Shown: piece by piece, positions 14,828 to 32,634 of the stretch | Layout of the letters: every line of letters starts with the position of its first letter | Position numbering within the stretch: the first letter of the stretch is position 1 | From: Achromobacter spanius | Lineage (GTDB): Bacteria > Pseudomonadota > Gammaproteobacteria > Burkholderiales > Burkholderiaceae_B | Assembly: GCF_002812705.1 (NCBI RefSeq) | Contig: NZ_CP025030.1 | Location: forward strand, 5,208,001-5,272,000 | Direction of reading: 5' to 3' | DNA length: 64,000 bases | Made by a program: the position numbers and the translations under genes | Notes under the pieces: model-generated | The model's database searches: none | What the model saw: the letters and a program-made list of their open reading frames with translations, nothing else | What the model was told of the DNA's origin: nothing

Positions 14828-14877
14828 GATCGGGCAATCCTGGATCGCAATGCGGTGAGGGCGCGTCGGCGCCGGGG

Positions 14878-15363: not shown

Positions 15364-15384
15364 GGATCTCTTCCTCAATACGGA

Positions 15385-17261: not shown

Positions 17262-17273
17262 CGTCGCCGCCCC

Positions 17274-18197
17274 TTAAATTGACTTGGCCATGCGATACAG
17301 CCAATAGCAGCCGCCAATCTGCAACACCACGGCGGTCAGCAGCATCTTGAAGCCCAGCGGGTCTTCCCACAGCCCCATGAAGAGCTTGTTGTTCGCCACC
17401 ATGATGAAGCCGGCAATGCCCACCGGCAGCAAGGCCAGGATCCATGCCGACAAGCGCACCTCGGCGGAGCTGGCCGTCAATTCGTTGCGGGCCTGGGCCA
17501 CGTCACGCATGAAGGCGGCCATGCGTTCCAGCACCTGGTCGCTGCGGCCGCCGAACCGCATCGCCAGCGACACCACGGCAGCCACCATGTACAACTCTTT
17601 CAAGCCATACATGCGCGACACCTGCACCAGCGCCGCATCCAGTTCCTTGGCCGACCGGCTCAGGCTGGCCGCCGTTTCCACGACTTCGAGCAGGGGCTGA
17701 TCCGTTGCGGCCGCCGCCGTCTGGAACGCCGCGCCCATGCTGTTGCCGATGGTGATCAAGCGCACGATGTTGTCCAGGAAGGCAGGCAGTTGCGCAATCA
17801 TCCGACGCCGGCGCTTGTCGGCGCGCAGCCAGAGCAGGAAGTACGTCAGAACGGCAAGCATGATGAAAGACACCACGCCGGACAAGGGTCCCAGGAACAC
17901 CCACGCCAGCACCGCGCCCGCGACCACGGGAACGGTGATCCGCAGATAGAACCCCACGCTTTGTCGCACGCCCGCCAGCAGCAGCAGGCGGTCCCAACTG
18001 GAAAACCCGCTGCGCAACGCGCGCCCGCCTTCAGCGAACGGCGCGGCTTCAGCCGCTTCGCGGCCCCGCTTGAGCTGGTTGTCCAGGAACGCCGAGCTGG
18101 CCGCGCGGCGCGCGCCGCTATTGGCATGGCGCCACAGCAGTACCGCGCCCGAAGCCAGCACCAACGCCAGCGCGCCCAGGATCAAAGCGTCTTGCAT
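17274..18197 (-). CDS. tadB: TadB, type II secretion F-domain platform protein
   Basis: This 307-residue inner-membrane partner of TadC has a helix at the N-terminus (ALILGALALVLASGAVLLW), a pair at about 90-125 (VVAGAVLAWVFLGPLSGVVSFIMLAVLTYFLLW) and two at the C-terminus. The T2SSF core reads AQLPAFLDNIVRLITIGNSMGAAFQTAA. Its ATG shares a base with the tadA stop (TGATG), so the ATPase and platform are translationally coupled. Confidence 0.93.
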   Translation of the reverse strand: MQDALILGALALVLASGAVLLWRHANSGARRAASSAFLDNQLKRGREAAEAAPFAEGGRALRSGFSSWDRLLLLAGVRQSVGFYLRITVPVVAGAVLAWVFLGPLSGVVSFIMLAVLTYFLLWLRADKRRRRMIAQLPAFLDNIVRLITIGNSMGAAFQTAAAATDQPLLEVVETAASLSRSAKELDAALVQVSRMYGLKELYMVAAVVSLAMRFGGRSDQVLERMAAFMRDVAQARNELTASSAEVRLSAWILALLPVGIAGFIMVANNKLFMGLWEDPLGFKMLLTAVVLQIGGCYWLYRMAKSI

Positions 18198-19570
18198 CAG
18201 CGCCTCCGGCTCCAGAATCCGCCGCCGCCGTCGTTGTCGCCAGGCGGCGTGTCGTTGTTGCGCGCGTCGTTGTTGCGCGCGTCGTTGCGCAGCTTTGCCA
18301 GCTTGGGCGTGTGCGGATGGATGCCCAGCCAGTTCCAGCGGTCCTTCTCTTCGCCCTCGGGCGTGGTGAAGGTTTCGTGGCGATACAGTTCCTGCGTCGA
18401 GATGACGTTGTCGCCCATGCCGGTGACCTCGGTCACCGACAGCACGCGGCGCTTGCCGTTGGACAGGCGGCCGATCTGCACAATGAAGTCCAAGGCGCTG
18501 GCGATCTGGCGGCGCAGGCTGTCTTCGCTGCCCTGAAAGCCCGCGAAGCCGGCCAGCATTTCAATGCGGTACAGGCATTCACGCGGTGAGTTGGCGTGGA
18601 TGGTGGCCATGGAGCCTTCGTGGCCGGTGTTCATGGCTTGCAGCATGTCCATGACTTCGGCGCCGCGCACTTCGCCCACCACCACGCGATCGGGCCGCAT
18701 CCGCAGGCTGTTGCGGATCAGTTCGCGAATGCTGACCGCGCCGCTGCCGTCAAAGCCGCCCTGGCGCGATTCCAGCCGCACCACGTGCGGGTGGTTCAGC
18801 GACAGTTCGGCGGTGTCTTCCACCGTCACCACACGTTCGGTCTCCGGAATGAAGAACGCCAGCGCGTTCAAGAGCGAGGTCTTGCCCGAGCTGGTGCCGC
18901 CCGACACCAGCACGTTGCAGCGGTGCTTCACCGCTTCGTGCAGCAGCCGGTAGATGTCTTCGTCAAAGGTGCCCAGCGTCAGCAGGTCGGCGGGCTTGAG
19001 CGGGTCTTGGCGGAACTTGCGGATGGACACCATCGGGCCATCGACGGCCAGCGGTTCAATCACCACGTTCAGGCGGCTGCCGTCGGGCAGGCGCGCGTCC
19101 ACCATGGGGCTGGACTCGTCCAGCCGCCGGCCGATGGGCGCCAGGATGCGGCGCACGATGCGCAGCACATGCTGGTTGTCAGTGAAGCGCAGCGTCTCGC
19201 GCGCCAGCACCCCGCGCCGCGACACGAACACGTTGTCATAGCCGTTGATCAGAATGTCTTCAACGGCCGGGTCGGCCAGCAGGTCTTCGAGCGGGCCCAG
19301 TCCCGCCAGTTCCTTGGTCAGCGCCTCGGCAATCTGGCGCATTTCGCCTTCGTTGATCGGCACGCGGCGCAAGCGCACGAAGCTGGCCACTTCGATGTCG
19401 ACAAATTCCTGAATCGCCGAACGCGCCCAACGACCGAACTCGGCGCCCAGCCCCTCGATACGGGAAAGCAGGTGCTCGTACGCCGCCGTCTTGACTTCCT
19501 GAAACCGGTTCGACGAGGCAAAGCCCTTGTCGCCGTCACCGCCGAATTCTATGGTCGCTGTCATGATCAT
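18197..19570 (-). CDS. tadA: TadA/CpaF pilus assembly ATPase
   Basis: This 457-residue secretion ATPase powers Flp pilus assembly. Its N-terminal domain (about 30-130) carries the family LLADPAVEDILINGYDNVFVSR. The ATPase domain has Walker A SGGTSSGKTSL at 223-232, an Asp box and Walker B region (RMRPDRVVVGEVRGAEVMDML), and the His box TGHEGSMATIHANSP. It differs from tidy homologues at its C-terminus, which is a low-complexity Asn/Asp/Arg tail encoded by 15-bp repeats. ATG codons at 19570 and 19564 are both possible starts. Confidence 0.95.
   Translation of the reverse strand: MIMTATIEFGGDGDKGFASSNRFQEVKTAAYEHLLSRIEGLGAEFGRWARSAIQEFVDIEVASFVRLRRVPINEGEMRQIAEALTKELAGLGPLEDLLADPAVEDILINGYDNVFVSRRGVLARETLRFTDNQHVLRIVRRILAPIGRRLDESSPMVDARLPDGSRLNVVIEPLAVDGPMVSIRKFRQDPLKPADLLTLGTFDEDIYRLLHEAVKHRCNVLVSGGTSSGKTSLLNALAFFIPETERVVTVEDTAELSLNHPHVVRLESRQGGFDGSGAVSIRELIRNSLRMRPDRVVVGEVRGAEVMDMLQAMNTGHEGSMATIHANSPRECLYRIEMLAGFAGFQGSEDSLRRQIASALDFIVQIGRLSNGKRRVLSVTEVTGMGDNVISTQELYRHETFTTPEGEEKDRWNWLGIHPHTPKLAKLRNDARNNDARNNDTPPGDNDGGGGFWSRRR
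18251..18292 (-). repeat. 15-bp in-frame tandem repeat in tadA 3' end
   Basis: GTCGTTGTTGCGCGC occurs at 18251-18265 and 18266-18280, followed by a partial GTCGTTGCGCAG. The period is a multiple of three, so each unit adds five residues (NDARN-type) to the hydrophilic tail of TadA without a frameshift. Confidence 0.9.
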
Positions 19571-19604
19571 GTCGGATTCCGCCGCCGCCCCGTGAATCTT
19601 GCCG

Positions 19605-20936
19605 TTAACCGACGATCATGCGGCGGTGCACGCCGGGCAGCCACGTGGCCAGCCAGCTTGCCCGCCCGCCGGGAGTGTTCTCTTCCGCGCTGAGTTTTTC
19701 CGCCAGCGTCTGCACCGCGCGCACATACACGTCGCGCTCGGCTTCTTCGTGCAGCAGGTGGCCCTGGTTCGTGCAGACCATCAAGGCCAGCGTGCGATCG
19801 GGCAAGGTACCCACGAGCTCCAACTGAAAGCGGTCGGCGATCTGCTGCGCGGTCATGCCGTAGCGTTCGTCGTAGCGGTTGACGATCAGCCCCAGGCTGC
19901 GGCGGTCCACGTGCAGTTGCTCAAGCTCTTGCAGCAGGCCGGCCAGCGACACCAACGCCCCGACGCTTTGGTCGGTCACTATCCAGTTCTGTTGAGACGA
20001 ACGGGCCAGGCCCGCCACGAACTCCGGGTTCGTGAAGCCGCCCGCATCCGCTACAACCACGCCGAAGTGTTGGCGCATGCGCTCGAACACCAGCAGGGAG
20101 TCGGACTGCGAAACGTCGCGCATCTGGGCAAGGTCGCGCGGCAATGCCAGCACGCTCAGGCCGTTGGCGGTGTGCGCCATCGCCGAGCCCAGCAAGGTGG
20201 AATCCAGTCGGCGCAGGTTGCGCGCGGCTTCGGCAAAATCAAAGTCACTGCCGATATTCAGGTAAAGCTGGCAATCGCCCACGGGCCAGCCCAGGTCCAT
20301 CAAGGCCACGCGGCTGGCCAGCGGCAGCATGGCGCCCGTTTGCTCGGCAGGTTTGGCGGGCTTGGCGCCATTGGCCGCGCTGCGCGTGGCGTGCATCTGC
20401 TTCAAGCGGTCTTGCACCATGCCGGCCAAATGCACGGCCAGCGTGCTGGTGCCCACGCCGGGGCGCGCGCCCAGCAGCAACACACTGCGGCGCGATCCGT
20501 CCATGCGGCCGCCGCCCGCCGGCAGTTCCAACAGGCGCAGTACAACGTCTTTCACTTCTTCGGGAGCCACCGTGGGGTCGACGAAATCGCTGACGCCGGC
20601 GCGCAGCGCGGCAATGGCGCCTTCAGGCTGGCTCAGCAAACCCACCGCCACGCGCGGCACGGTCGGCGCAATGCGCGCCAACACACGTGCCAGCTCGGCG
20701 GACTTGAACAGCTTGCCCGGTTCGTCTTCGCTTAGCGTGAAGTCCAGGAACACCACCTGCGGTGCAATCTCGGTCAAGCGCCGCGCCAGCTCTTCGATGC
20801 CCGGGGTTTCCTGGGTCAACATGCCCATGTCCCCCAAAGCTTGTCCAAGCTGCGCGGCTACCCCATCGCCTTTTGAGCAAAACAGAAACCGCCTTCCGTT
20901 TTGCAGGCCAACCCACTCGCTGGCATGTGTCTTCAT
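19605..20936 (-). CDS. tadZ: TadZ/CpaE pilus localisation ATPase
   Basis: This protein of about 443 residues has an N-terminal receiver-like domain (about 15-125) and a C-terminal MinD/ParA-type P-loop domain. The deviant Walker motif reads LLGARPGVGTSTLAVHLA; the second Lys of MinD is absent. TadZ proteins set the polar site of the Tad machine. The ATG at 20936 has GGTGAG four bases upstream; a GTG at 20945, overlapping the secretin stop as GTGA, is the alternative start. Confidence 0.88.
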   Translation of the reverse strand: MKTHASEWVGLQNGRRFLFCSKGDGVAAQLGQALGDMGMLTQETPGIEELARRLTEIAPQVVFLDFTLSEDEPGKLFKSAELARVLARIAPTVPRVAVGLLSQPEGAIAALRAGVSDFVDPTVAPEEVKDVVLRLLELPAGGGRMDGSRRSVLLLGARPGVGTSTLAVHLAGMVQDRLKQMHATRSAANGAKPAKPAEQTGAMLPLASRVALMDLGWPVGDCQLYLNIGSDFDFAEAARNLRRLDSTLLGSAMAHTANGLSVLALPRDLAQMRDVSQSDSLLVFERMRQHFGVVVADAGGFTNPEFVAGLARSSQQNWIVTDQSVGALVSLAGLLQELEQLHVDRRSLGLIVNRYDERYGMTAQQIADRFQLELVGTLPDRTLALMVCTNQGHLLHEEAERDVYVRAVQTLAEKLSAEENTPGGRASWLATWLPGVHRRMIVG

Positions 20937-20941
20937 ATTAC

Positions 20942-22327
20942 TCACCGTGAAAAGCCCGGCATTTGCTGCCCGCCCACCGGGCCCATCAGGTAATAGCCCC
21001 AGGCATTGAAAGTCGAATCCGATACTTCTTGCCGCCCGCCCGGCAGCGGCAGCGTCACGCCGCGCGCAATCGGGCGCACCAGTCGCGGCGTCACCACGAT
21101 CACCAGTTCGGTGTCTTCCTGCGTGTAATCGACGCTGCGAAAGAACGCGCCGATGATGGGCAGGTCGCCCAGCATCGGCACTTTGTTGACCATCGCCTTG
21201 GTCTGCCGCGACACCAGCCCGCTGATCACGAAGCTTTCGCCATCGCCCAATTCAACGGTGGTGTCCGCGCGGCGCGTGCGCAGCGCCGGAATGACCATCA
21301 CGTTATCCGAACCGGTGTTGATGGAAATGCCGTTGGTGTAGTCGAGCTCGCTGGCCTCGGGAGCCACCTTCAAGGAAATGCGGTCGCGCGACAGCACGGT
21401 GGGCGTCACGGTCAGGCCGATACCGAATGGCTTGAAGGTGACCGTGGTGGTGCCCAGGCCGCCGGCTTCCGGAATCGGCAATTCGCCGCCCGCCAGAAAG
21501 CTGGCGCTTTGGCCGGTCAGCGCCACCAGCGTGGGCTCGGCCAGCACGCGCGCCATGCCGTTGCTTTGCAAGAGGCGCAGGCGCGCCGCAAAGTTGTTGG
21601 AGTCGTAGAACAACGAGAAACCCGCGGCAAGGACGCCGCCCGGGGTAAAGCCGCCCACCGACGACGACTGGCTCGAGAGCGGCTGCGCGCTTGTGCTCGC
21701 CCACGGCCCCCCGCTGGCCGCGAAGTTGATGCCAGCCTGCTTCAGCACCGAACGCGACACTTCCACGACCTTGACCTCGACCTGGACCACGCCGCCCGTG
21801 CCGGCGGTGGACACGTCGACCACGTTCTTGTCGCCCACGGCCGCGGCCGCCGCTTTTGCGGCGGCAATCTGCGCCAGCGGGGTTTCGGAGTAACCGGACA
21901 CGATGGCGCGGTCGCCAGCGATGTCGACGTTGACGCCGCCGTCGATGCCACGGCTGGCCAGCGCCGCTTGCACCGAAGACGCCACGCGCACGTTCCAGAC
22001 TTGCGGCGCGGCATTGTTGCCGGTCCATATCTGAAGCTGCGTGGTGCCCGCCTTCTTGCCGTAGATCAGCAGCGAGCCCGCGCCCTTGCCCGTGGCAGGC
22101 AGGATTTTCACGTCGGCAACCTCGGGGTCGCCAATGGCGATGCGGCGCGGCGTGGCGCCATCCAGCATGAGGGATTGCTGGCCCTTGACGGCCACCGCGA
22201 TATCACGGACAAGAGCATTTGCCCCCGTCGCGGGCGCGGCGGTCTGCGCCAGGCTGACGACACCGTATGTCATCGCCGCTGCGGCCGACAGGACGCAGAT
22301 CATAGTGGTGCGCTGAAATATCTTCAT
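20942..22327 (-). CDS. cpaC: CpaC/RcpA secretin of the Tad system
   Basis: This protein of about 461 residues forms the outer-membrane secretin channel. The signal peptide covers MKIFQRTTMICVLSAAAAMTYG to about residue 27. It has an N-terminal pilus/BON-type region (about 40-165), then the secretin domain with VEVKVVEVSRSVLKQAGINF, VLAEPTLVALTGQSASFLAGGELPIP and the final VPMLGDLPIIGAFFRS/ELVIVVTPRLVRP blocks. ATG at 22327 is chosen because it gives the signal peptide; the longer frame starts with a TTG overlapping the cpaB stop. Confidence 0.92.
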   Translation of the reverse strand: MKIFQRTTMICVLSAAAAMTYGVVSLAQTAAPATGANALVRDIAVAVKGQQSLMLDGATPRRIAIGDPEVADVKILPATGKGAGSLLIYGKKAGTTQLQIWTGNNAAPQVWNVRVASSVQAALASRGIDGGVNVDIAGDRAIVSGYSETPLAQIAAAKAAAAAVGDKNVVDVSTAGTGGVVQVEVKVVEVSRSVLKQAGINFAASGGPWASTSAQPLSSQSSSVGGFTPGGVLAAGFSLFYDSNNFAARLRLLQSNGMARVLAEPTLVALTGQSASFLAGGELPIPEAGGLGTTTVTFKPFGIGLTVTPTVLSRDRISLKVAPEASELDYTNGISINTGSDNVMVIPALRTRRADTTVELGDGESFVISGLVSRQTKAMVNKVPMLGDLPIIGAFFRSVDYTQEDTELVIVVTPRLVRPIARGVTLPLPGGRQEVSDSTFNAWGYYLMGPVGGQQMPGFSR

Positions 22328-22392
22328 TGTGCCGGATCTAGTTATTTTGAAAGGTCCAGCCGCAGGCGGCACCAGGCCACGCACGGCGATGG

Positions 22393-23349
22393 TCAATAGC
22401 GAACGCGCTCGGATTTATCTCCCCGCACGATTTCGATGGTTCTGCCGCCACCGCCGCCACCCGTCGTCGCCACGCGGTTGACGGGAGCCCGGGCCGCGGG
22501 CGTCTTGCCTTCCAGTTGCAGCAGGCTGTCGCCCGCGTACGCGCGGTTAGGGCCGGCCAGCAAGGCCTCGCGCTGCGCCGGCGTCAGGTCGGCGCGCGTG
22601 GGCAACACCGTGCCGCGTTTGGCGAACAGCGTCTCGTCGGGCACCGCGTCGTCACCTACCGGGCGCAAGGCCAATTGCAGGCGGCCGGCGCGGCTTGCCA
22701 GGATCAGCTCGTTGATATGCTCGACGGGCACCGCCAGCACCGCCGTGCGCGCCGGCTGGCTGGGGCCTTGCTGCAGCATCGATTTTTCTTCCGGGCCATC
22801 CACCGAGGCCTTGCCGTACGCCAGCACGCGCAATTGCGCCTGCAGCAACCGGGCCTGGCCGCCCGAGATTTCCTGGCTTTTCTCCACCATGAAGAACACG
22901 TCCACCAAATCGCCCGGCGCGATGCGGTTGCCGCCACCCACCACTTCATCGACCGCGATGGCGACGGCGCGCTCCCCGGGCTTGAGTTGCCTGGCAAGGC
23001 CTTGCGCCAAGAGGCTGGGCAAGATGGGGTCGCCCGCCGCGACGTCCACGCGCGTCACCGCCCCTTCCAAGGGCGCCATGGTGTCGAAGCTGTTGGACAG
23101 CGACACCTGCCATTGCGCCACCGTCAGCATTTTTTCCGCTTCGATCCGGGTGCCGGCGGGAATCGCTTCCTTGGCCACCACAACGGAATAGAACTTGACC
23201 GGCGGCGCGGCGGGCGCGGGCGCCGAGGCCACCGGCGCCGGGCTTGCCGGCGGCGCGCCGGGATGCGACGCCAGGCGCCAGGCCAGGAAGGCCAGCACCA
23301 GGCCCGCCACCAACAACATGCCCGCGATGATCTTGCTAAGACTGCTCAT
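22393..23349 (-). CDS. cpaB: CpaB/RcpC Flp pilus assembly protein (SAF domain)
   Basis: This 318-residue inner-membrane-anchored periplasmic protein has a membrane helix at residues about 6-27, an Ala/Pro linker, and a SAF domain (VVVAKEAIPAGTRIEAEKM) at about 55-120. The RcpC-like domain contains GERAVAIAVDEVVGGGNRIAPGDLVDVFF. It links the secretin to the platform or peptidoglycan in Tad systems. ATG at 23349 overlaps the previous stop as ATGA; the longer reading frame has no support. Confidence 0.92.
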   Translation of the reverse strand: MSSLSKIIAGMLLVAGLVLAFLAWRLASHPGAPPASPAPVASAPAPAAPPVKFYSVVVAKEAIPAGTRIEAEKMLTVAQWQVSLSNSFDTMAPLEGAVTRVDVAAGDPILPSLLAQGLARQLKPGERAVAIAVDEVVGGGNRIAPGDLVDVFFMVEKSQEISGGQARLLQAQLRVLAYGKASVDGPEEKSMLQQGPSQPARTAVLAVPVEHINELILASRAGRLQLALRPVGDDAVPDETLFAKRGTVLPTRADLTPAQREALLAGPNRAYAGDSLLQLEGKTPAARAPVNRVATTGGGGGGRTIEIVRGDKSERVRY

Positions 23350-23846
23350 GGTGTCCCTTGCGATATCTGTACGACGGCTTTCGACGACAACCTGCTTGGA
23401 ACCCAGTCCTTGTTCGTGCCGGGCAACAGGACGATGAACGACTGCAAGGTGGCCAGCAAAGGCCAGGACTGGGTGTTGTAGGTCATGGCGACGGTGGCGC
23501 AATTGGCCACTTGGCCGCCGGATCCCGTCCACGTGCATGGGGCGCTGGTGGTCGCGCAGGCAACCGCCGAACCCGTGGAGAAGACGCTCATGGCGGCCGC
23601 GCAGGCAGCGCCCTGCACATTCGGGCTGCCGGTGATCTGTGCATGCACGGCGGCGCGCGCGCCTTCGCCGGCGGCGGCGGCCAGTTGTTGCTGCATCCAG
23701 AACAGCACGCCGTAGCCGACCACGGCGCAGATGAAGATCAGCAGCATGGTCAAGGTCAACGACAGCTCAAGCGCGGCAATACCGCGTTGGCGGATCAAGC
23801 GAGGGCAATGGCGAAGATGACGGGGCAGAGGCATGGGCAGGGTCAT
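23346..23846 (-). CDS. TadE/TadF-like pseudopilin
   Basis: This 166-residue protein has a basic N-terminus (RHLRHCPRLIRQRG) then IAALELSLTLTMLLIFICAVVGYGVLF, a class-III pilin-like segment cut by the TadV peptidase after a glycine and followed by a Glu at +5 (IAALE). Its periplasmic part has four to five cysteines. ATG at 23846 has GGAGG five bases before. It overlaps cpaB by four bases and is the second of two TadE-like genes here. Confidence 0.85.
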   Translation of the reverse strand: MTLPMPLPRHLRHCPRLIRQRGIAALELSLTLTMLLIFICAVVGYGVLFWMQQQLAAAAGEGARAAVHAQITGSPNVQGAACAAAMSVFSTGSAVACATTSAPCTWTGSGGQVANCATVAMTYNTQSWPLLATLQSFIVLLPGTNKDWVPSRLSSKAVVQISQGTP

Positions 23847-23847
23847 G

Positions 23848-24355
23848 TCAACCTCCCACGCCAACCGTGTTGCCCAGATGGACCGTGGCGCGCGCGCTCA
23901 ACACGCTGGAAGCCGGCATCATGGCCAACTGCAACAGCGGGAACGACGGAATCAGGGGGTTCGCGCCATAGGCGTAAGACACCGTCACTTCAATCTGGTC
24001 GGGCGCCAGAGGTTGGCCGCTGCAGGTGCCGCCGGCGCTGCTGCTCAAGGCGCCCCCGCTGCCGCACACCGCCACCTTGATGGGCGCGGACGACATCGAG
24101 GACATCCATTGTGCGATGTCCAAGGCAGTGTCACGCCCGGCATTGGCGCGCGCTGCCAGCGAGGCCGAACCGGCCTGCCATTGCAGAACCTTGCGCGCGC
24201 CGTCCTGCGCCGCCAAGGTCACCGAATTTTGTGCAAGAAACACCAGCCCGTAGGTCAGGATGCCGTAGAACACCAGAAAGAACACCACGAATACCAGGGC
24301 GAACTCAATGGCATAAGCACCACGCTGAGCGCGGCGATGCCCAGATACATCGCAT
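23848..24355 (-). CDS. tadE: TadE-like pseudopilin; start codon missing, frameshift suspected
   Basis: The coding signal is clear from about 24335 leftward: RRAQRGAYAIEFALVFVVFFL is a TadE pilin-like N-terminus with glycine cleavage and Glu at +5, followed by a periplasmic domain with two cysteines. However, in this frame there is no ATG, GTG or TTG for over 100 codons upstream. ATGs at 24355 and 24350 lie in the other two frames. Removing one base from the CCC run at 24340-24342 would join ATG 24355 to this frame and also give tadV a stop at 24305. The coordinates assume that. A sequencing error, real frameshift or unusual start are all possible. Confidence 0.7.
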
Positions 24356-24776
24356 AGGGAACCTGGCGCCAGCGTTGCGTCAGCGCCCAGTAGCGCGACA
24401 GGAAAACAACCACCAGGCTGTGCAGGCCGGCCAGCAGGCTCGACAGCAGCAGCACCAGCACCAGCGGCGCCAGGCCCAGCCACAATCCCAGAATGGCAAT
24501 GGCCTTGATATCGCCCGCGCTCATCAGGCGCCGGCCCCAAAGCGGCAGGAACAGAAAGGCGGCCAGAAAGCCCGCCAAGGTCATCAGCCAGCCCGTCCAA
24601 CGTGGGGGAAACAACCATCCGGGCACGAACGCGGCGGCGGCCAGCCAAAGCAGCTGCGCCGCGAATCCCCCCACGATCAACGTGTTGGGTACGCGGCGAT
24701 AGCGCAGATCGTTGTAGATCAGCGCCCCACTCCAGCATGCGAACACCAGCAGCCACAGCACTTCCCCTGGATACAA
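24255..24776 (-). CDS. tadV: TadV/CpaA-type prepilin peptidase
   Basis: This 173-residue polytopic A24 aspartic peptidase processes Flp pilin and TadE/F pseudopilins. The two catalytic aspartates are in LIYNDLRYRRVPN (residue about 23) and MSAGDIKAIA (about 90), separated by membrane helices. The start at 24776 is TTG, with AAGG upstream; a GTG at 24761 is the alternative. The last 20-30 residues after about 24350 (SSPWYSWCSFWCST) are not typical of the family and overlap tadE in another frame, consistent with a one-base error near 24341. Confidence 0.85.
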   Translation of the reverse strand: MYPGEVLWLLVFACWSGALIYNDLRYRRVPNTLIVGGFAAQLLWLAAAAFVPGWLFPPRWTGWLMTLAGFLAAFLFLPLWGRRLMSAGDIKAIAILGLWLGLAPLVLVLLLSSLLAGLHSLVVVFLSRYWALTQRWRQVPYAMYLGIAALSVVLMPLSSPWYSWCSFWCSTAS

Positions 24777-24923
24777 GGCAGGACCTTCTTATCAATCAGA
24801 TTCAACGGCAGGCGTGCTCATCCAGACGAACATACCCCGGTCAAGCAACTGATACAGATCGCGTACCGCGATGACTCGCCACATTGATTGAGCCGTCGCG
24901 GTACGCGTAGCACAGCAGGACGA

Positions 24924-25109
24924 TTAACCGCCCGCGCCGCCGGCCGTATCGAGCTTGCCGCCGAGCCCCGTGAACATGTCGCCGAGGGCATCAGTGAAAG
25001 TGCCCACGGCAGCGATCAGGGCCACTGCCACCAGACCTGCGATCAGCCCGTATTCCAGGGCGGTGATGCCGTCTTCGTCGTTCCAGAACTGCGCAAGTTT
25101 CGCTTTCAT
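24924..25109 (-). CDS. flp: Flp-type type IVb major pilin
   Basis: This 61-residue pilin carries a short leader ending at Gly14, then the Flp motif ITALEYGLIAGLVAVALIAAV with Glu19 (+5) and Tyr20 (+6) of the mature protein as in all Flp pilins. The C-terminus is a short Gly/Ala tail. It polymerises into the adhesive Tad pilus. It is the first gene of the minus-strand tad locus and lies about 150 bases ahead of tadV. Only one flp copy is visible in the window. Confidence 0.95.
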   Translation of the reverse strand: MKAKLAQFWNDEDGITALEYGLIAGLVAVALIAAVGTFTDALGDMFTGLGGKLDTAGGAGG

Positions 25110-25225: not shown

Positions 25226-26056
25226 CTAACCCGGCCCCAGCGTGGAGCCGGGCGCCTTGCCTGGTTCAGCCACAGGCGCCGATTCAATGAAAGAGTCGAT
25301 CCGCTGCGCCATGCGCGCGCGGAATCGGTTTGATGCCCGCTGCAATTGCCAACGCATGATCAGCAACATGAGCGCGGACAGCACGAAAGCGATGTAGGGC
25401 AGCATGACCCCGCCCACTTGCAGGCTGGAACTGTCGCGAGGGGCGGTGCAGATAACAGTGCCGGCCGCCGCGCCGGTGTAATGCATGCCGCACACGGCCA
25501 CCGCCATCAAAATGGCCGCGCCGCCGCGCTGAAACTCATTCTGGGTATTGAAGGCCAGCCACAGAGCGGCCGAAGCGGCAATTACGGCGATAAGCACCGA
25601 TAAAACGACAATGGGCAAATTCCACAGCAACACGGCGGGCATGCGCATTGCGCCCATGCCCAGATAATGCATGGCGGCAACGCCCAGCCCCGCTGCCAAC
25701 CCGCCCATGACGCAACGGCCGAACGTGAAGCTCGCGCGCCCGACATACCAGAATGCCCAACCGGAAAAGCCCGCGGCGACGAAGAAGCTGAGTATGGTCA
25801 GGCCGACTTGATAACCCACGTCGAACGGCAGGTTTTGTGCTTGCATGCCAATGAAGTGCATGCTCCAGATACCGACGCCACCCATCGCCACGGCACCAAT
25901 GATGATGTAACCGATGCGGATATCACCGTCTTGGGTTTCAGTGCGGATGCCGGCCGCCGCCAACAAGGCGACATACGAACCCAGCACCGCCGTCAGGAAT
26001 GACAGAGCGACCAGACCGCCGTTGAACGATAGCGGGACGACATCACCCGGGCTCAT
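25226..26056 (-). CDS. MHYT-domain integral membrane protein
   Basis: This 276-residue protein has seven or so membrane helices and three copies of the MHYT-type metal-sensing motif: MHFIGM, MHYLGM and MHYTGA. Each has Met and His near the outer face of helices, thought to bind copper or a gas such as O2, CO or NO. No GGDEF, EAL or kinase domain follows the short basic C-terminus, so it is a stand-alone sensor. ATG 26056 gives the family start MSPGDVVPLSFNGGLVALSF; the longer frame would use TTG. It lies next to the tad locus and is divergent from the TpsB gene. Confidence 0.88.
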   Translation of the reverse strand: MSPGDVVPLSFNGGLVALSFLTAVLGSYVALLAAAGIRTETQDGDIRIGYIIIGAVAMGGVGIWSMHFIGMQAQNLPFDVGYQVGLTILSFFVAAGFSGWAFWYVGRASFTFGRCVMGGLAAGLGVAAMHYLGMGAMRMPAVLLWNLPIVVLSVLIAVIAASAALWLAFNTQNEFQRGGAAILMAVAVCGMHYTGAAAGTVICTAPRDSSSLQVGGVMLPYIAFVLSALMLLIMRWQLQRASNRFRARMAQRIDSFIESAPVAEPGKAPGSTLGPG

Positions 26057-26544
26057 GAACGGCCCCAGCAAAAGCGCCGGAAACCAAAGTGCGGGATCGG
26101 TTGATCGCGCCAAGCATTATTGGGGTGATGCGCGCCCATTTTGTGGACTCCCGGTGGCTCATAACCGATGTGTTTTTGATACGTTTATATAGTCTCATCT
26201 ATTAACATTTAATACACATCCGGGTTTTTACCTATATTCGCGATAATGCGGCTACAGACTTGTAACCGATACAGCAAAATTCGCGCCAATTTGATTAAAA
26301 AACCATAGTTAACCCTTATATATCGTGAATATTTTCGTTCCTGAGAATTTCCATATGTTGTAATTCTGTCGTGCCCATACGGTCACAAAGAAATAAATTG
26401 TTATTACTAATCGTCATTGGCCCCATACTACCCGCGGCGCACCAAAGCGCGTTTACCAATGCTGTGTCCCTTTATATATTCAATATATCGGCAATACCGA
26501 ATATTCATCGGGACGGCGTCGGCGGAAACCGAGACACCCAGGCA
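26057..26544. other. AT-rich divergent intergenic region
   Basis: These 488 bases lie between the divergent MHYT and TpsB genes. From about 26170 to 26530 the sequence is markedly richer in A/T than anything else here (for example TTTATATAG, AATATATCG, TTATATATCG). It contains no convincing gene. A frame in phase with TpsB is open from 26371 but lacks family features. It probably holds promoters for both genes; no single promoter could be picked with confidence. The base composition is compatible with binding by an H-NS-like protein, which is inference. Confidence 0.6.
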
Positions 26545-28254
26545 ATGAGACGTACGTACCCGGCAAGTTCGCTTACCCTCGCCCTTGTTTGCATCTTTGC
26601 CTTTGGCGCGCAGGCGCGGGCGGATGGCCCCCTGCGGGGCAATCCCGTTGACGCCCTGCCACAGCTTGAAAGACCGCCCGGCGCCGCGCAGCCGCCGCCC
26701 GCTGTGCAAACCGCCACGCCCGAACAGTTGGCGTTGCAGGCCAGGCTGGCGCAACGCATCGTGCCGCTGAACTTTGACGTAAGCGGCGTGCACGCCATTC
26801 CCTTCGACGAAGTTTCCGCGATACTAAGCCCGCTGTCGGGCAAGGAAATCAGCCTGGGCGACCTGGTCCAGCAAGTCGACAAGATCACGCAGTTGTACCG
26901 CGACAAGGGCTATCCGCTGTCTTTCGCGCTGGTGCAGAACCAGACGTTCGCCAAGGGCCTGGTGGTGGTGACCGTGGTTGAAGGCTTCATTTCGAATGTC
27001 CGGATTGAAGGCGATATCGGTAACGCGCAGGGGCGTCTGGATACCTTGGCCGGCCCGCTCATCGAAGAGCGTCCACTGAAGCAGGCCACGCTTGAGCGCC
27101 AGTTGAATCTGATGCGAACCGTGCCCGGCGTGAAGTTCACACCCAGCCTGGATCTGCCGCGCCGCGCGGATGGCGCAACTGAATTGGTCTTGGCGGCCAC
27201 ACGCCACCCGTTCAGTTTGACGGGCGGCATCGCCGACCTGGGTACCGGCATGCAACCCCTGGTCAATATTGGCGCCAACAGCCTCACACCGCTGGGCGAA
27301 CAGGTCAAACTGACGGCGTCGGTGCCGTTCAATACCGACGACGTCAAATACGTCATGGGCGAAATCAGCGTGCCCATCGGGCCCGACGGTTTGGCGGTCA
27401 AGGTGGATGGCTACCACTATGACGCCAAACCGCAGGACGACGCGATCGAATACCTGGGGTTTGAAAGGCGCGTGAAGAACGACCGCATCGGCATTGGTGT
27501 CAGCTATCCGATATTGCTGAACAACACGCGTTCACTTACCGGTACCGTGGGTATGTACGCGGCCAATTCCAAAGACCGATATGAAGCGCGCAATTCGGAT
27601 CGTTGGCTGCAACAAGACGCGCGCGTGCGTGCCGCTAATATCGAACTACGATATATACAGGTTTCTGAAAGCCAAACTTCGGACATTAGCGGCAGCGTAT
27701 CCAAGGGGTTTGACGCGGCGGGCGCCAAGAAGGACATCTCGACCAATTACGGTTATTCAGCGACCCCCATTCTGGATCTGGATTTCGTCCGCTATAACCT
27801 GAACGCCAAACAAACGTTTGCGCTACCCGCGCAGTTTGGCCTGACCTTCTCTGGCGCGGCGCAATATTCCAGCAATATATTGCCGTCCTCGGAACAGGTC
27901 TCGTTCGGCAGTTGGCGTTATGCCATGGGATACCCCCAAGGCGAACAAAGCGGCGACAAAGGCGTAGGCGTGTCGGCCGAAGTGAACCGGCGCTTCGGCA
28001 CCGGTTGGGAATACCTGTCCAGCGTTCAGCCTTACGCGCTGATCGACTATGCGCGCACTTGGTACAACAACAAGGACCTGCAAGCCTTGAACCAGCGGCA
28101 CCTGTCATCCGTAGCGCTGGGGTTGCGGTTCACGGACGATAAATACTACTTGTTCGACTTCAACGTGGCCAAGCCCATCGGCTCCGCCACCGTCAACAAT
28201 GACCGCGACGTACGCTTCAACGCCAACTATTCACTGTTTTACGACGCCTTCTGA
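26545..28254 (+). CDS. Orphan TpsB (ShlB/FhaC-type) outer-membrane transporter
   Basis: This 569-residue protein has a signal peptide MRRTYPASSLTLALVCIFAFGAQARA, a Pro-rich linker, two POTRA regions (about 70-240, with VPLNFDVSGVHAIPF, ITQLYRDKGYPLSFALVQNQ and VVEGFISNVRIEG) and a 16-strand-type barrel ending in a terminal Phe. Such Omp85-superfamily proteins secrete TpsA adhesins or cytolysins across the outer membrane. The loop-6 motif, VRGY/F in FhaC, reads AMGY at residues 460-463, so its arginine is missing, although SGDKG follows normally. No TpsA gene with a haemagglutination domain is nearby. The upstream frame is open to 26371; ATG 26545 is chosen for the signal peptide. Confidence 0.88.
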   Translation: MRRTYPASSLTLALVCIFAFGAQARADGPLRGNPVDALPQLERPPGAAQPPPAVQTATPEQLALQARLAQRIVPLNFDVSGVHAIPFDEVSAILSPLSGKEISLGDLVQQVDKITQLYRDKGYPLSFALVQNQTFAKGLVVVTVVEGFISNVRIEGDIGNAQGRLDTLAGPLIEERPLKQATLERQLNLMRTVPGVKFTPSLDLPRRADGATELVLAATRHPFSLTGGIADLGTGMQPLVNIGANSLTPLGEQVKLTASVPFNTDDVKYVMGEISVPIGPDGLAVKVDGYHYDAKPQDDAIEYLGFERRVKNDRIGIGVSYPILLNNTRSLTGTVGMYAANSKDRYEARNSDRWLQQDARVRAANIELRYIQVSESQTSDISGSVSKGFDAAGAKKDISTNYGYSATPILDLDFVRYNLNAKQTFALPAQFGLTFSGAAQYSSNILPSSEQVSFGSWRYAMGYPQGEQSGDKGVGVSAEVNRRFGTGWEYLSSVQPYALIDYARTWYNNKDLQALNQRHLSSVALGLRFTDDKYYLFDFNVAKPIGSATVNNDRDVRFNANYSLFYDAF

Positions 28255-28275
28255 CATCGGTTTACACGCCATCCC

Positions 28276-28304
28276 AAAGCGCCTGTTTCGACAGGCGCTT
28301 TTCC
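28276..28304 (+). terminator. Rho-independent terminator after the TpsB gene
   Basis: AAGCGCCTGT and ACAGGCGCTT form a perfect 10-bp stem around TTCG, followed by TTCC. It separates the TpsB unit from the lipoprotein unit. Confidence 0.85.
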
Positions 28305-28350
28305 TTTGGCACGGCGCCAGCGCAAAGCCAGATTTAGTCCGGAATCCACT

Positions 28351-28388
28351 CCACGTTACGTAACGTGGCCCGTAACGTAACGTCGGAT
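28351..28388. promoter_or_regulatory. 18-bp palindrome plus second half-site array, likely enhancer/operator
   Basis: CCACGTTACGTAACGTGG (28351-28368) is a perfect palindrome. CGTAACGT half-sites recur at 28371-28378 and 28376-28383. The array lies about 200 bases upstream of the sigma-54 promoter, the distance at which enhancer-binding proteins bind. A MarR binding site is the other option, because the MarR gene is in the same unit. Which protein binds is unknown. Confidence 0.55.
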
Positions 28389-28552
28389 CACCCGCCATTC
28401 GTAACAATCGCAGGGTTCTTGTGGTCGCAAATTAACGATCATCGTCTGTTAGTACAAACCCTGGACAAAAAAATATAAGCCATTGATACGAAAGGACTTT
28501 TAAGAAACAAAACAATAGACGAGCCACGCACAATCTCGGGTTTTGAAAAATC

Positions 28553-28569
28553 TTGGCACGGTTTATGCA
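28553..28569 (+). promoter_or_regulatory. Sigma-54 promoter of the lipoprotein-marR unit
   Basis: TTGGCACGGTTTATGCA differs from the sigma-54 consensus (YTGGCACGRNNNTTGCW) at one base. The -24 GG and -12 GC are separated by exactly 10 bases. The -12 element ends 57 bases before the ATG at 28626, leaving a leader of about 45 bases that includes GAGGAG at 28614-28619. It lies in an A/T-rich intergenic stretch, not inside a gene. Confidence 0.75.
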
Positions 28570-28625
28570 TGTAGAGCCGTATCGGGCAGTTTCTTTGCCT
28601 GGACCATCCAACCGAGGAGCTCGTC

Positions 28626-30236
28626 ATGGTTTCCAAGATTGAAGCAGACCGCATTCGACGCATTTTGACCGCCACCGTCATGGCAGCAGCCTTGGCTGGC
28701 GCATTGACCGCTTGCGGCGGCGGCGGTAGCGATAGGTCCGCGGGCCTGCCCGGCACGAATGTTCCTTCCAACCCGGGCGGCTCGGACCCGACCACGCCTG
28801 GTGGCACGGATCCCAATAATCCCGTCAACCCCGTCACGGCGGGTTTGCTGCAAACCACCCTGGGTAACACCGGCAACGCCGTCGACAATACCCTGCCTTT
28901 GAATCTGGGCTCGACATTGGGCGGCGTGGGCAAGTCGCTGGATCCCACGGTAGCGCCCGTGGTCGACACCGTGGTGGGCCTGACGCAGCAAATCGGCGCT
29001 ACGACCGGCCTGGGCGCCCCCGTGGATGGCATCACCACGCAAGCAGGCGGCCTGGTCAGCGATCTGGGCACCACCCTGAAGAGCTCCGGCCTGCCGGGCG
29101 GCCTGGATGCCGGCGTAGGCGGCCTGGTGGATGGCCTGGGCAAGACCGTGTCCAGCGCGGGAGACCTGTTGAATGCGGACCCCGCCAACCCCATGCCCTT
29201 GACGACCGTGCTGGGTACTGCCACGAACTCCGTGGGCGCGCTGACTGCTGGCCTGTCGGGCCAGGGCGGCTTGCTGAACCCGGTCACCCAAGGGCTGGGC
29301 GGAGTAACGGGTGGCATGTTGGGCGGCCCGGCCAGCCCCGTGCTGCAACCCGCTTTGTCCAACACGGGCAAAGCCGTGGACAACGTGTTGCCCTTGGGCC
29401 TGCAACCCGCACTGGGCGGCATCGGCGCGGCACTGGACATGAACGTGGCGCCGGTTGCCGGCGTGGTTACCAACCTGACGCAGCAAGTGGGCGCCACCAC
29501 CAATCTGGGCGCACCGGTGGCCGGGCTGCTCTCCAGCCTGGGCGGCACAGTCGCCGGGGCCGGCAGCACGCTGCCTGGCGACACGGCGGGCTTGAACGGG
29601 GTGCTGCAAGGCTTGGGCGGCGCGGTCGCCAGCGCCGGCGGCCTGCTCCACGCCACGCCGGGCAACACCAACCCGCTGGGTGCCACGCTGGCCAACGCGA
29701 CCGGCGCGGTCGCCTCGTTGACCGGCGGCCTGGGCGGCGCCACGGGTGGTCTGACGGGTGGCGGCACGGGCGGCTTGCTCAGCCCCATCACCGGCATTCT
29801 GGGGGGTGTCGGCGGCGTCGGCGGTACGCCGGCGGCGGGCGGCGTGGGTGGCTTGCTGGCACCGGTGACCGGCCTGTTGGGCGGGGTGACCGGTGCGGCG
29901 GGCGGTGCAACCGGCGGCGCCAATGGCGGGCTGCTGGGCGGCTTGCTGGGTGGCGTAACCGGTGGGACCACAGGCGGCGCGGGTGGCGGCTTGTTGGGCG
30001 GTGTGGTGGGTGGCGTGGTTGGCGGTGTATCGGCCGGCGCCACGACAGGCACCGGCGCCAGCGCGGGTGCCAGCGCCGGTGGCGCGGCCGGTGCGGGGAC
30101 GGCTGCCAACGGCGGCTTGCTGGGTGGTTTGCTGGGCGGCGTCACAAGCGGCTTGACGGGCGGTACGACGGCGGGCGGCACCAACAACGGCGGCTTGCTG
30201 GGCGGTCTGCTCGGCGGCTTGTCGGCACAGAAGTAA
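28626..30236 (+). CDS. Gly/Leu/Val-rich repetitive predicted lipoprotein
   Basis: This 536-residue protein has a signal peptide with lipobox ALTAC, Cys at residue 30, followed by GGGGSD, which would direct a lipoprotein to the outer membrane. A Pro/Asn/Gly linker spans 35-70. Two related blocks of about 160 residues follow (about 75-230 and 239-400); each contains an N(T/A)G.AVDN.LPL segment and a VT.LTQQ(I/V)GATT.LGAPV segment. The tail from about 400 is almost all Gly, Leu, Val, Thr and Ala (GGLLGGLLGGVTGG). It is not a true Gly-X-Y collagen. Database names such as collagen-like would be misleading. No function is known. It precedes marR by 27 bases and is transcribed from a sigma-54 promoter. 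Confidence 0.8.
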   Translation: MVSKIEADRIRRILTATVMAAALAGALTACGGGGSDRSAGLPGTNVPSNPGGSDPTTPGGTDPNNPVNPVTAGLLQTTLGNTGNAVDNTLPLNLGSTLGGVGKSLDPTVAPVVDTVVGLTQQIGATTGLGAPVDGITTQAGGLVSDLGTTLKSSGLPGGLDAGVGGLVDGLGKTVSSAGDLLNADPANPMPLTTVLGTATNSVGALTAGLSGQGGLLNPVTQGLGGVTGGMLGGPASPVLQPALSNTGKAVDNVLPLGLQPALGGIGAALDMNVAPVAGVVTNLTQQVGATTNLGAPVAGLLSSLGGTVAGAGSTLPGDTAGLNGVLQGLGGAVASAGGLLHATPGNTNPLGATLANATGAVASLTGGLGGATGGLTGGGTGGLLSPITGILGGVGGVGGTPAAGGVGGLLAPVTGLLGGVTGAAGGATGGANGGLLGGLLGGVTGGTTGGAGGGLLGGVVGGVVGGVSAGATTGTGASAGASAGGAAGAGTAANGGLLGGLLGGVTSGLTGGTTAGGTNNGGLLGGLLGGLSAQK

Positions 30237-30263
30237 TCGATCTATCCGCTACGGAGCGACATC

Positions 30264-30812
30264 ATGCTGCAACAAGAATCGATGGTCCACCACGAGCATG
30301 TGACCGTGATGCCTGAATCCCGCACGAGTGACTTGCGACCGGGAATGCTTGACGATATCGCCCTGATGCTGGGTCGGCAGTTCTCGGTGTACAACACCGC
30401 GTGCCAGTCAGCCCTGGCGGAAAAGCTGGGTATCCCCCTGGCCGACCTGAAAGCGCTGGAACTGGTGATGGAGTTCGACGCCTTGCCCACCGGGCAGCTT
30501 GCCCAGATGATGGGCATCAGTTCAGGCGGCGCCACCGCCTTGATCAACCGGCTGGAGGCGGCAGGCTATGTGCAGCGCGGCCGCCACCCGCTGGATCGCC
30601 GGATGATCGTGATCCGGCCGGTCGAGGAACAGTGCCAGCAGTTGGCGCAAGAACGTCAATGGGTCGCGGATGCGGTGATGTTGATGGCGCGGCGCTACGA
30701 CACGGTCGAGCTGGAAACCGTGCATGCCTTCCTGGCGCAATGCGTGCGCGCCTTGCGGCACGACACGCTGGTCTGGCTTGAAACGCCCAGCGCCCATCGC
30801 GACGATCTGTAA
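30264..30812 (+). CDS. MarR family transcriptional regulator
   Basis: This 182-residue protein carries a winged helix-turn-helix at about 75-130 (LPTGQLAQMMGISSGGATALINRLEAAGYVQRGRHPLDRRMIVIRP), with flanking dimerisation helices. MarR proteins repress or activate in response to small ligands. A GGAG lies before ATG 30264. The gene follows the lipoprotein gene by 27 bases in one apparent transcription unit and ends at a strong terminator, so it may control its own unit through the 28351-28388 palindrome. Confidence 0.9.
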   Translation: MLQQESMVHHEHVTVMPESRTSDLRPGMLDDIALMLGRQFSVYNTACQSALAEKLGIPLADLKALELVMEFDALPTGQLAQMMGISSGGATALINRLEAAGYVQRGRHPLDRRMIVIRPVEEQCQQLAQERQWVADAVMLMARRYDTVELETVHAFLAQCVRALRHDTLVWLETPSAHRDDL

Positions 30813-30846
30813 ACCCGGCGGCGTCCGCCACGACGCCGACTGACCA

Positions 30847-30886
30847 CGCGCCCTGATTTCACGGAAATCGGGGCGCGTTTTTCATG
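30847..30886 (+). terminator. Rho-independent terminator after marR
   Basis: CGCGCCCTGATTT pairs with AAATCGGGGCGCG (one G-T pair) followed by TTTTT. It lies between convergent genes. Confidence 0.9.
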
Positions 30887-30927
30887 GATGCGCGATAGGC
30901 ATGCGCAACACGCGGCGCGGCGCCGAT

Positions 30928-32634
30928 TCACCCCCCGCTGGGCGTACCGAACTCCAGACGTGGCACCGCCGCCAGCAGCCGGCGCGTCAATTCCTGGCGG
31001 GGCGCGTGCAATACGGTGTCGGCCTCGCCCAGTTCAACAATGCGGCCGCCGTCCATGACGGCGATGCGGTCCGCCAGATACTCGACCACGCCGAAGTTGT
31101 GCGTGATGAAGAGATACGCAATGCCCAATTCGGCCTGAAGCTCGCGCAGCAGGTCCAGAATCTGCGCCTGCACCGACACATCCAGGGCCGACGTGGGTTC
31201 ATCGCAGATCAGTACCTTGGGTTCCACCGCCAGCGCGCGCGCAATGGCGATGCGCTGGCGTTGGCCGCCCGAGAATTCATGGGGATAGCGCGTCAGCGTG
31301 TTGGCCGGCAAGCCCACGCGCTCGATCAACTGCGCGGCGTGCGCGGCGCGCGCCTGCTGGCTCATGCCCCGTCGCAACGACGCCAGGCCCTCGTCGAGGA
31401 TGTCGCCCACGCGCATGCGCGGATCGAGCGATGCGTACGGGTCCTGGAACACAATCTGGATGTCTTGCCGCAGATCGCGCAGCGTGCGGCGGTCAGCCGA
31501 CAGCACGTCCTTGCCTTGTAGCATGGCGCGGCCCGAGATGCGCGCACCGTCGATCAGCCGCAGCAGCGCCTTGCCCGTGGTGGTTTTGCCGCAGCCGGAC
31601 TCGCCCAGCAGGGCCAGCGTTTCGCCCGCGCGCAACGAAAACGTTACGCCGTCAACGGCCTTGACCCAGGACACGATGCGCCGCAACGGCCCCTTGCGCA
31701 CGGGGTAATGCACTTTCAGGTCCTGCACATCCAGCACCACCCCCCCTGCCGCGCGCTGCGTGGCCCGTTCCTTGGCTCGCTGCGCGCCGTCTTGCACGAT
31801 GGCATCACGCGCCTGCGCCGTCAGCGGCGCGCCGCGCTTGGCGAAAGTGGGGATGGCTTCGAACAATTGCCGTGCGTACGGATGCTTGGGCGCGCGAAAG
31901 AATTCATCGGCGCTGGCGCTTTCAACGATTTCGCCGCCGCGCATCAGCGCCACGTGATGCGCCACGTTCTTCACCACGGCCAGGTCATGCGTGATCAGCA
32001 GCACGGCCATGCCCATTTCGCGCTGGATGTCGGCCAGCAGGTCCAGCACCTGCGCCTGCACCGTGACGTCCAGCGCCGTGGTGGGTTCGTCCGCGATCAG
32101 CAGCAGCGGCTCGGCCGCCAGCGCGATGGCGATCATGACGCGCTGCTTCTGTCCGCCCGAAAACTGGAACGGGTAGTCGTCCACGCGCCGCTCGGGCTCG
32201 GGGATGCCCACGCGGCGCAGCCAATCGATGGCCCGCGCCCGCGCCGCCGCGCCGCGCAGCGGCGTATGCGCCGTCAGGGTTTCGATGATCTGGTCGCCCA
32301 CGCGCATGACGGGGTTCAGGCTGGTGGACGGCTCCTGGAAGATGATGCCGATACGCCCCCCGCGCACGCCGCGCATCGCGCTTTCGGGCAGCCGGTTCAG
32401 GTCTTGCCCGTCCAGGTCGATCTGCCCGCCCACGATGCGGCCGGCGTCCGGCAGCAAGCGCAGCAACGCCAACGCCGTGATGCTTTTTCCGCAGCCGGAT
32501 TCTCCGACCAGCGCGAAGGTCTCGCGCTGCGAAATAGCCAGTTCCAGCCGCTTGACGGCATGCGTCATGCCGGATTCGCCGGCAATGTCCACCTCCAGGC
32601 CGCGCACGTCCAGCAAGAGAGTATCCGAGCTCAT
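30928..32634 (-). CDS. yejF: Yej-like ABC importer, dual ATP-binding protein
   Basis: This 568-residue protein has two complete nucleotide-binding domains. Walker A is GESGCGKSITA in the first and GESGCGKTTTG in the second; both have FSGGQ signatures (FSGGQKQR, FSGGQRQR) and LLIADEPT or LICDEPT Walker B boxes. This fused arrangement is typical of YejF of the peptide/nickel ABC family, imported here by a two-permease system. ATG 32634 overlaps the upstream permease stop (ATGA); the longer frame is antisense noise. It is the last gene of the operon. Confidence 0.93.
   Translation of the reverse strand: MSSDTLLLDVRGLEVDIAGESGMTHAVKRLELAISQRETFALVGESGCGKSITALALLRLLPDAGRIVGGQIDLDGQDLNRLPESAMRGVRGGRIGIIFQEPSTSLNPVMRVGDQIIETLTAHTPLRGAAARARAIDWLRRVGIPEPERRVDDYPFQFSGGQKQRVMIAIALAAEPLLLIADEPTTALDVTVQAQVLDLLADIQREMGMAVLLITHDLAVVKNVAHHVALMRGGEIVESASADEFFRAPKHPYARQLFEAIPTFAKRGAPLTAQARDAIVQDGAQRAKERATQRAAGGVVLDVQDLKVHYPVRKGPLRRIVSWVKAVDGVTFSLRAGETLALLGESGCGKTTTGKALLRLIDGARISGRAMLQGKDVLSADRRTLRDLRQDIQIVFQDPYASLDPRMRVGDILDEGLASLRRGMSQQARAAHAAQLIERVGLPANTLTRYPHEFSGGQRQRIAIARALAVEPKVLICDEPTSALDVSVQAQILDLLRELQAELGIAYLFITHNFGVVEYLADRIAVMDGGRIVELGEADTVLHAPRQELTRRLLAAVPRLEFGTPSGG

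Follow-up and report, generated by a model that had tools for sequence, protein, structure and literature searches.

A conserved sigma-54-type promoter with paired upstream dyads at a collagen-like lipoprotein gene in Achromobacter and its probable Tad-linked, GtrR-type activator

Bases 28354–28593 of the Achromobacter spanius window (the whole 64 000 bp stretch of DNA that was analysed) are read here, with a probability of about 0.83, as an RpoN-dependent promoter with a remote enhancer that would be driven by a GtrR-type, Tad-linked activator. The reading draws on sequence comparison, in which the −24/−12 element and the upstream dyads are both present and conserved, keep a similar geometry, recur at genes for collagen-like lipoproteins (CLPs) and accompany a shared activator with an unchanged recognition helix. 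The features concerned are:

11281–12693, minus strand: gene for the GtrR-type sigma-54 activator, the proposed dyad binder, at the far end of the Tad cluster (PF00158, E 5.1e-63; PF02954, HTH_8)
12731–25109, minus strand: Tad/Flp pilus cluster (pilin at about 24924–25109, prepilin peptidase, secretin, ATPase and Tad proteins)
26371–28254, plus strand: gene for a TpsB/FhaC-like outer-membrane transporter, the upstream neighbour (POTRA_2, ShlB)
28354–28365, unstranded: dyad 1, CGTTACGTAACG, core of an 18 bp palindrome and proposed enhancer site, centred at about −220 and identical in 28 of 30 aligned loci
28371–28382, unstranded: dyad 2, CGTAACGTAACG, centred at about −203, 17 bp from dyad 1
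28400–28414, plus strand: third conserved element, CGTAACAATCGCAGG, which holds a further GTAAC half-site (identity 0.928 over 30 loci)
28456–28462, plus strand: conserved AAACCCT element (identity 0.75–1.0 in columns 28457–28462), with a similar block upstream of the MHYT gene
28553–28569, plus strand: sigma-54 (−24/−12) element, TTGGCACGGTTTATGCA, ranked first of 259 17-column windows, with GG and GC in 30 of 30 loci
28579–28593, plus strand: conserved GTATCGGGCNGTTTC at or after the predicted transcription start (identity 0.907 over 30 loci)
28626–30236, plus strand: CLP gene, 536 amino acids, lipobox LTAC (PF15984, Collagen_mid, 54.6 bits against a cut-off of 31.1)
30264–30812, plus strand: gene for a MarR-family regulator (PF12802, PF01047), 27 bp behind the CLP gene

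The first-pass annotation had described a match to the sigma-54 consensus with one mismatch and a 10-base spacing, and both details were confirmed at 28553–28569, where TTGGCACGGTTTATGCA departs from TGGCACGNNNNTTGCW at a single position and 10 bases lie between GG (28555–28556) and GC (28567–28568). Judged alone, the match is no better than chance, as the window held 18 matches to the −24/−12 pattern with up to two mismatches against 20.0 expected, and the 17-base form with up to one mismatch was found 67 times genome-wide against 65 for the reversed control pattern. The finding therefore had to rest on comparison. A search for the lipoprotein found it in 34 of 61 relative genomes, 33 of the same genus and one (G042) with a weak match, and all 30 loci obtained from the 33 genus genomes were aligned. 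Within 28351–28625, the −24/−12 element came first in conservation among 259 windows of 17 columns. GG-N10-GC was retained in all nine variants of the element and at all 30 loci, and its mean pairwise identity was 0.918, compared with 0.446 in the preceding 85 bases (28464–28548). From the position of the −12 element, transcription is predicted to start at about 28580.

It is highly improbable that the gene is served mainly by a sigma-70-type promoter formed from the conserved module at 28400–28463, with a chance match at −24/−12. Parts of that module are conserved and single −24/−12 matches are common by chance, but a scan of 28230–28650 for sigma-70-type promoters gave no match (0.4 expected in shuffled sequences), and no other 17-base stretch is as conserved as the supposedly accidental element, which also accompanies the dyad in different families. 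A terminator scan also found none.

The 18 bp palindrome CCACGTTACGTAACGTGG is present at 28351–28368, as had been claimed, and is the sole match in the window at up to three mismatches (0.02 expected by chance). As a unit it stood in part: the 12 bp core CGTTACGTAACG is near-invariant in the genus alignment, whereas the outer bases vary, and the whole palindrome was rejected as the functional unit since conservation is confined to the core. The conserved arrangement is a pair of near-invariant dyads, CGTTACGTAACG and CGTAACGTWACG, about 170 bp upstream of the −24/−12 element (mean pairwise identity 0.989 for dyad 1 and 0.956 for dyad 2). Dyad 2 reads CGTAACGTAACG in 21 and CGTAACGTTACG in seven of the 30 Achromobacter loci, and in the window 170 bp separate its end from the −24/−12 element. 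The extra half-sites that the annotation had mentioned are real, namely CGTAACGTAACG at 28371–28382 and CGTAAC at 28400–28405. Its proposed genome-wide search for the palindrome, run with the refined pattern YGTWACGTWACR, gave only dyads 1 and 2 in the A. spanius genome. Dyad 1 itself occurs exactly at one place there, and with one mismatch at dyad 2 and at three other places. Those three were discarded, since no sigma-54 match scoring 10 or more out of 13 was found up to about 330 bp away from any of them (one place has a 9), and by the same measure no match lies near an extra dyad in genome G021. The comparisons support the suggestion that the dyads, about 200 bp upstream of the sigma-54 element, are placed as an enhancer would be.

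Between the dyads and the promoter lies a second conserved module (28398–28463), consisting of CATTCGTAACAWTCGCAG followed by GTCGCAAA-type and AAACCCT blocks. Its first part recurs in similar form at three CLP promoters of genome G099, where an element akin to CGTAACAATCGCAGG takes the form TTTGTAAC/ATGTAAC-AWTCGCA. A conserved block with CGTTACA and a AAACCCTGATGTGTATTAA stretch was seen on the minus strand at 26190–26270, upstream of the MHYT gene, and its resemblance to the second module of the lipoprotein promoter hints at a common regulator of the pilus side and the lipoprotein. The sigma-54-like match upstream of the same gene (26257–26273, minus strand) was not counted, being kept in two of 20 aligned sequences, the window and L217. 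The almost invariant GTATCGGGCNGTTTC may be an RNA-level or operator element, and an Rfam search of 26000–31000 gave no match. These other conserved elements suggest that further factors act on the CLP promoter.

The product of the first gene had been called an uncharacterised surface lipoprotein. It is a lipoprotein, with a lipobox (AGALTAC, read by eye) near residue 30, and glycine-rich repeats are visible, but it belongs to a described class, Collagen_mid in Pfam and ‘Bcc-CLP’ in the available text of PMC10224339. The marR gene is probably in the same transcript, and the proposed lipoprotein-marR unit appears sound in comparative sequence. The TpsB-like gene upstream probably has its true start further in, before the signal peptide, and a homologue of it was found in 11 of the 13 distant activator loci described below. 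According to the portions available of the papers cited, the Burkholderia cenocepacia CLP genes bcal1523/1524 adjoin the flp operon (PMC10224339), contact with host-membrane vesicles induces genes of the BCAL1520–1537 locus, including pilus genes and bcal1523/1524 (PMC7970998), and BCAL1524 promotes auto-aggregation (PMC10303873). By analogy, the CLP of the window probably serves in adhesion or aggregation and is probably produced alongside the pilus programme.

Strong Sigma54_activat matches were found in eight genes of the genome, and within the window only in the 11281 activator, which combines a GAFTGA-bearing AAA+ domain with a Fis-type HTH. Its best PDB match by sequence is 7vbs (E 2.2e-147, residues 9–463), and it is 53–61 % identical to Tad-linked activators of other families. 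The C-terminal residues of the activator in genome G544 equal the aligned end of 7vbs, and the end of the G544 gene is an exact match to the 20-base reverse primer for B. cenocepacia gtrR given in the accessible part of PMC8174753, the forward primer having five mismatches. Because of the 7vbs match, the common C-terminal residues and the gtrR primer match, we infer that the Tad-linked activators are GtrR orthologues. The structure 7vbs would itself be GtrR, an assignment made from the C-terminal residues and the primer match and not from the PDB label. GtrR (BCAL1536) is described, in the text available from PMC12838280 and PMC9684580, as the partner of RpfR and a broad regulator that responds to BDSF and c-di-GMP.

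The exact paired dyad was found once each in 32 of 268 genomes of the family, all 32 within the genus, where the activator was present in 37 and marR in 38 of 43 genomes. The activator was missing from G005, G018, G036 and G062 and from the incomplete G028 and G033. Eleven genus genomes were without the exact pair: G007, G010 and G024 have near variants in the alignment, G005, G018, G036, G062 and the 57 %-complete G033 are all without marR and the activator, and G028, G034 and G064 have marR and fall outside the 30-locus alignment. In the near-complete G005, G018, G036 and G062, there was no activator, marR, paired dyad or Collagen_mid match. Since the activator, the Tad genes and the CLP gene are neighbours, this co-occurrence partly reflects whether a single segment is there or not.

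A scan of public species genomes for the paired dyad returned 26 stretches, of which 20 were from Achromobacter, with a GG-N10-GC site 164–170 bp on in all 20. Five of the other six were simple or near-simple CGTTA repeats and one was from a Gammaproteobacteria MAG (L157). This stretch (L157, 5570–5599) is the sole non-repeat paired dyad outside Achromobacter in the scanned genomes, and a sigma-54-like match with a score of 11 lies 85 bp away.

In an order-level sample, the activator was found in 12 of 399 genomes (E ≤ 1e-110, with the best few candidates per genome scored), 10 of them outside the genus. Those 10, together with three of five named plasmid or megaplasmid records (Caballeronia and two Cupriavidus), supplied 13 distant loci with about 20 kb on each side. 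The setting seen in the window, an activator in a Tad/flp cluster beside CLP genes, was met again in the distant loci, and the single GAFTGA-type signature in each of the 13 was the activator's own. The recognition helix was identical in 13 of 13 aligned distant activators, and 7vbs has the same helix; the residues before it differ somewhat in three (G607, G358 and Cupriavidus metallidurans).

The 522 091 bases of the distant loci contained 139 sigma-54-like sites at the chosen score, and 13 of these, in nine of the 13 loci, have a correctly oriented dyad (up to one mismatch) 60–200 bp upstream. In permuted half-site controls (n=179), there were on average 0.17 and at most two pairs against the 13 real, the permuted families having been built slightly differently from the real one. 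With matched construction (n=359 permuted dyads), the mean was 0.18 and the highest counts were 11 for CGWTACGTAWCG and six for CGTAWCGWTACG, both near-copies of the dyad itself, followed by three. By eye, ten of the 13 pairs were seen to precede genes for proteins that have a lipobox and collagen-like ends; seven of the ten gave Collagen_mid matches and three (Caballeronia, C. metallidurans) tblastn matches to the window protein. The remaining three pairs, in L237, L243 and L266 (at 22502), do not lead into CLPs. At the standard criteria there was no pair in four loci, G042 and G572, which have pairs with looser criteria, and G358 and Cupriavidus campinensis, which have none. Genome-wide, the 10 outside genomes held 16 exact dyad places, seven inside the activator-locus stretches, and 48 places for the reversed control pattern; as the control is the commoner, the dyad is rare rather than frequent. 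One of the nine exact dyads outside the activator loci (G515, contig 17) leads to a CLP gene, and in six loci read of the remaining eight no CLP gene was found behind a sigma-54 match.

Several individual arrangements were also recorded. On the C. metallidurans CH34 megaplasmid (L267, 6929–7235), two divergent CLP genes, with a sigma-54 site each, have a single CGTTACGTAACG dyad between them. On the Caballeronia insecticola plasmid p1 (L266, 22502–22626), an EAL-like frame (by eye) adjoining the activator gene is preceded by a weak sigma-54 match and by a dyad with one mismatch. In G385 (L237, 1852–1950), a dyad and a strong sigma-54 match 69 bp apart lead to a non-CLP frame. In G607, the dyad precedes a non-CLP frame and the stretch includes masked bases.

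The distant loci bear on a further explanation, in which MarR would bind the dyads to autoregulate its own operon and the sigma-54 element would be a separate feature or a coincidence. MarR proteins usually have palindromic operators, and the marR gene immediately follows the CLP gene in the genus and is close to CLP genes in G099. However, CLP promoters in G515, G544, G383, G572, G421, Caballeronia and C. metallidurans have a dyad, and a search within about 20 kb of the activator found no MarR homologue there (E ≤ 1e-4) except for a 41-residue match in C. metallidurans (E 3.4e-6); a position some 200 bp upstream would also be odd for a repressor. Such loci, with a dyad at the CLP promoter and no clear MarR homologue found, make this explanation very unlikely. 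MarR was rejected as the dyad binder, as the operator does not travel with the marR gene (among the distant loci, clear homologues were found in G099 only).

A converse test started from the CLP genes: a search of 17 genomes for Collagen_mid gave 25 genes (four further rows being second stretches of the same genes). L272 was left out as its upstream sequence was absent, so that 24 genes remained, three in the genus and 21 outside it. A −24/−12 site together with an upstream dyad (up to two mismatches) was present at 18 of the 24 in a hand count with the starts of L270 and L289 corrected, and in the 16 genes with the pair and an assigned start the first base of the 17-mer lies 58–121 bp before the start codon. 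For the two G042 genes, the dyad counts only with two mismatches allowed, and L270 has an exact dyad 245 bp away and a two-mismatch dyad at 131 bp. The pair was absent from six genes (L275, L283, L290, L293, L294 and L296), two of which, L283 and L293, are directly behind a CLP gene with the pair. A script that ignores start codons found the pair at 15 of 24 genes with up to one mismatch (control mean 0.09) and at 19 of 24 with up to two (control mean 0.65), the extra gene being L294. The highest control reached 14 and 17, respectively, and we take it to be the same near-copy of the dyad. Most of the CLP promoters compared have several GTWAC half-sites, the exact spacing of which differs between species.

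Four of the 18 paired CLP genes are unlinked to the Tad cluster (G042 at 2198397, G515 contig 17, G544 contig 3 and G421 contig 173). Dyad-bearing CLP genes far from the cluster, and the seven other strong Sigma54_activat genes in the A. spanius genome, would fit an explanation in which another sigma-54 activator, or a global regulator of an unrelated kind, is encoded elsewhere and binds the dyads. We consider this very unlikely, as the refined dyad stands at only one promoter in the A. spanius genome, which would suit a global regulator poorly, and G005, G018, G036 and G062, with neither the Tad-linked activator nor the paired dyad, nevertheless hold 8–10 other sigma-54 activators each.

The co-occurrence of the dyad with CLP genes and the unchanged helix instead favour the Tad-linked activator, and with it the link to the regulator at 11281 that the first-pass annotation had suggested. 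Under this preferred reading, oligomers of the GtrR-type activator would bind the clustered GTWAC half-sites of the dyads at about −220 and −203, and DNA looping would bring them to the RpoN-RNA polymerase at the −24/−12 element. The GAFTGA AAA+ domain would then hydrolyse ATP, transcription of the CLP gene and marR would start near 28580, and an adhesin-type lipoprotein would be made when the pilus programme is on. The activator as binder, RpoN dependence, looping and the input signal are the predicted parts of this scheme. We would give even odds to a broader view, that clusters of GTWAC half-sites are the DNA code of GtrR-type activators across the Burkholderiales and that the ancestral, near-exclusive job of the pilus-encoded activator is the RpoN-dependent switching on of CLPs, including copies elsewhere in the genome. 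On this view, the Tad cluster would include its own regulator of a separate set of adhesin genes, and in Achromobacter that regulon would have narrowed to a single promoter.

The outcome is a proposed binding motif and direct target regulon for a regulator that, in Burkholderia, has been linked with quorum sensing and c-di-GMP. It also points to a way in which the Tad pilus programme and surface adhesin lipoproteins may be switched on together. Regulator, DNA site and target gene are now open to a joint test. The literature searches turned up neither the GTWAC motif nor an assignment of it to GtrR-type activators, nor CLPs as a conserved target; the original GtrR paper, known via citations, may hold binding-site data.

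Among known systems, GtrR (BCAL1536) of B. cenocepacia is like the window activator in the full-length match to 7vbs and the identical recognition helix, and differs in being reported, in the available text of PMC12838280, as a broad BDSF/c-di-GMP regulator, whereas the refined dyad stands at one promoter only in the window genome. In the BCAL1520–1537 locus, CLP genes lie beside the flp cluster, as in the window, and BCAL1536 falls inside by number (accessible parts of PMC10224339 and PMC7970998), although the text available of PMC7970998 does not name BCAL1536. The closest likeness to the window CLP is in the B. cepacia complex, where BCAL1523 and BCAL1524 are PF15984 lipoproteins beside the flp cluster (PMC10224339, in the part available); the available portions of PMC10224339 and PMC10303873 give no promoter or regulator for them. 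BerB, which acts with RpoN on berA in B. cenocepacia, is likewise a sigma-54 activator for surface and biofilm genes with a TGGCACG-type promoter, but its target is an exopolysaccharide regulator and its gene neighbourhood is different (PMC5552954, available text). The main text of that paper, as far as available, does not contain the string GTTAC or GTAAC, and the mapped BerB sites are in a figure only. In Pectobacterium, a regulator encoded beside the Flp/Tad pilus cluster controls the cluster, which is the likeness to the window; according to the accessible part of PMC3767616, that regulator is a two-component system acting on the pilus genes, whereas in the window it is the lipoprotein gene that has the conserved sigma-54 site. 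The general combination of a sigma-54 promoter and an upstream-bound activator is itself a known kind of system.
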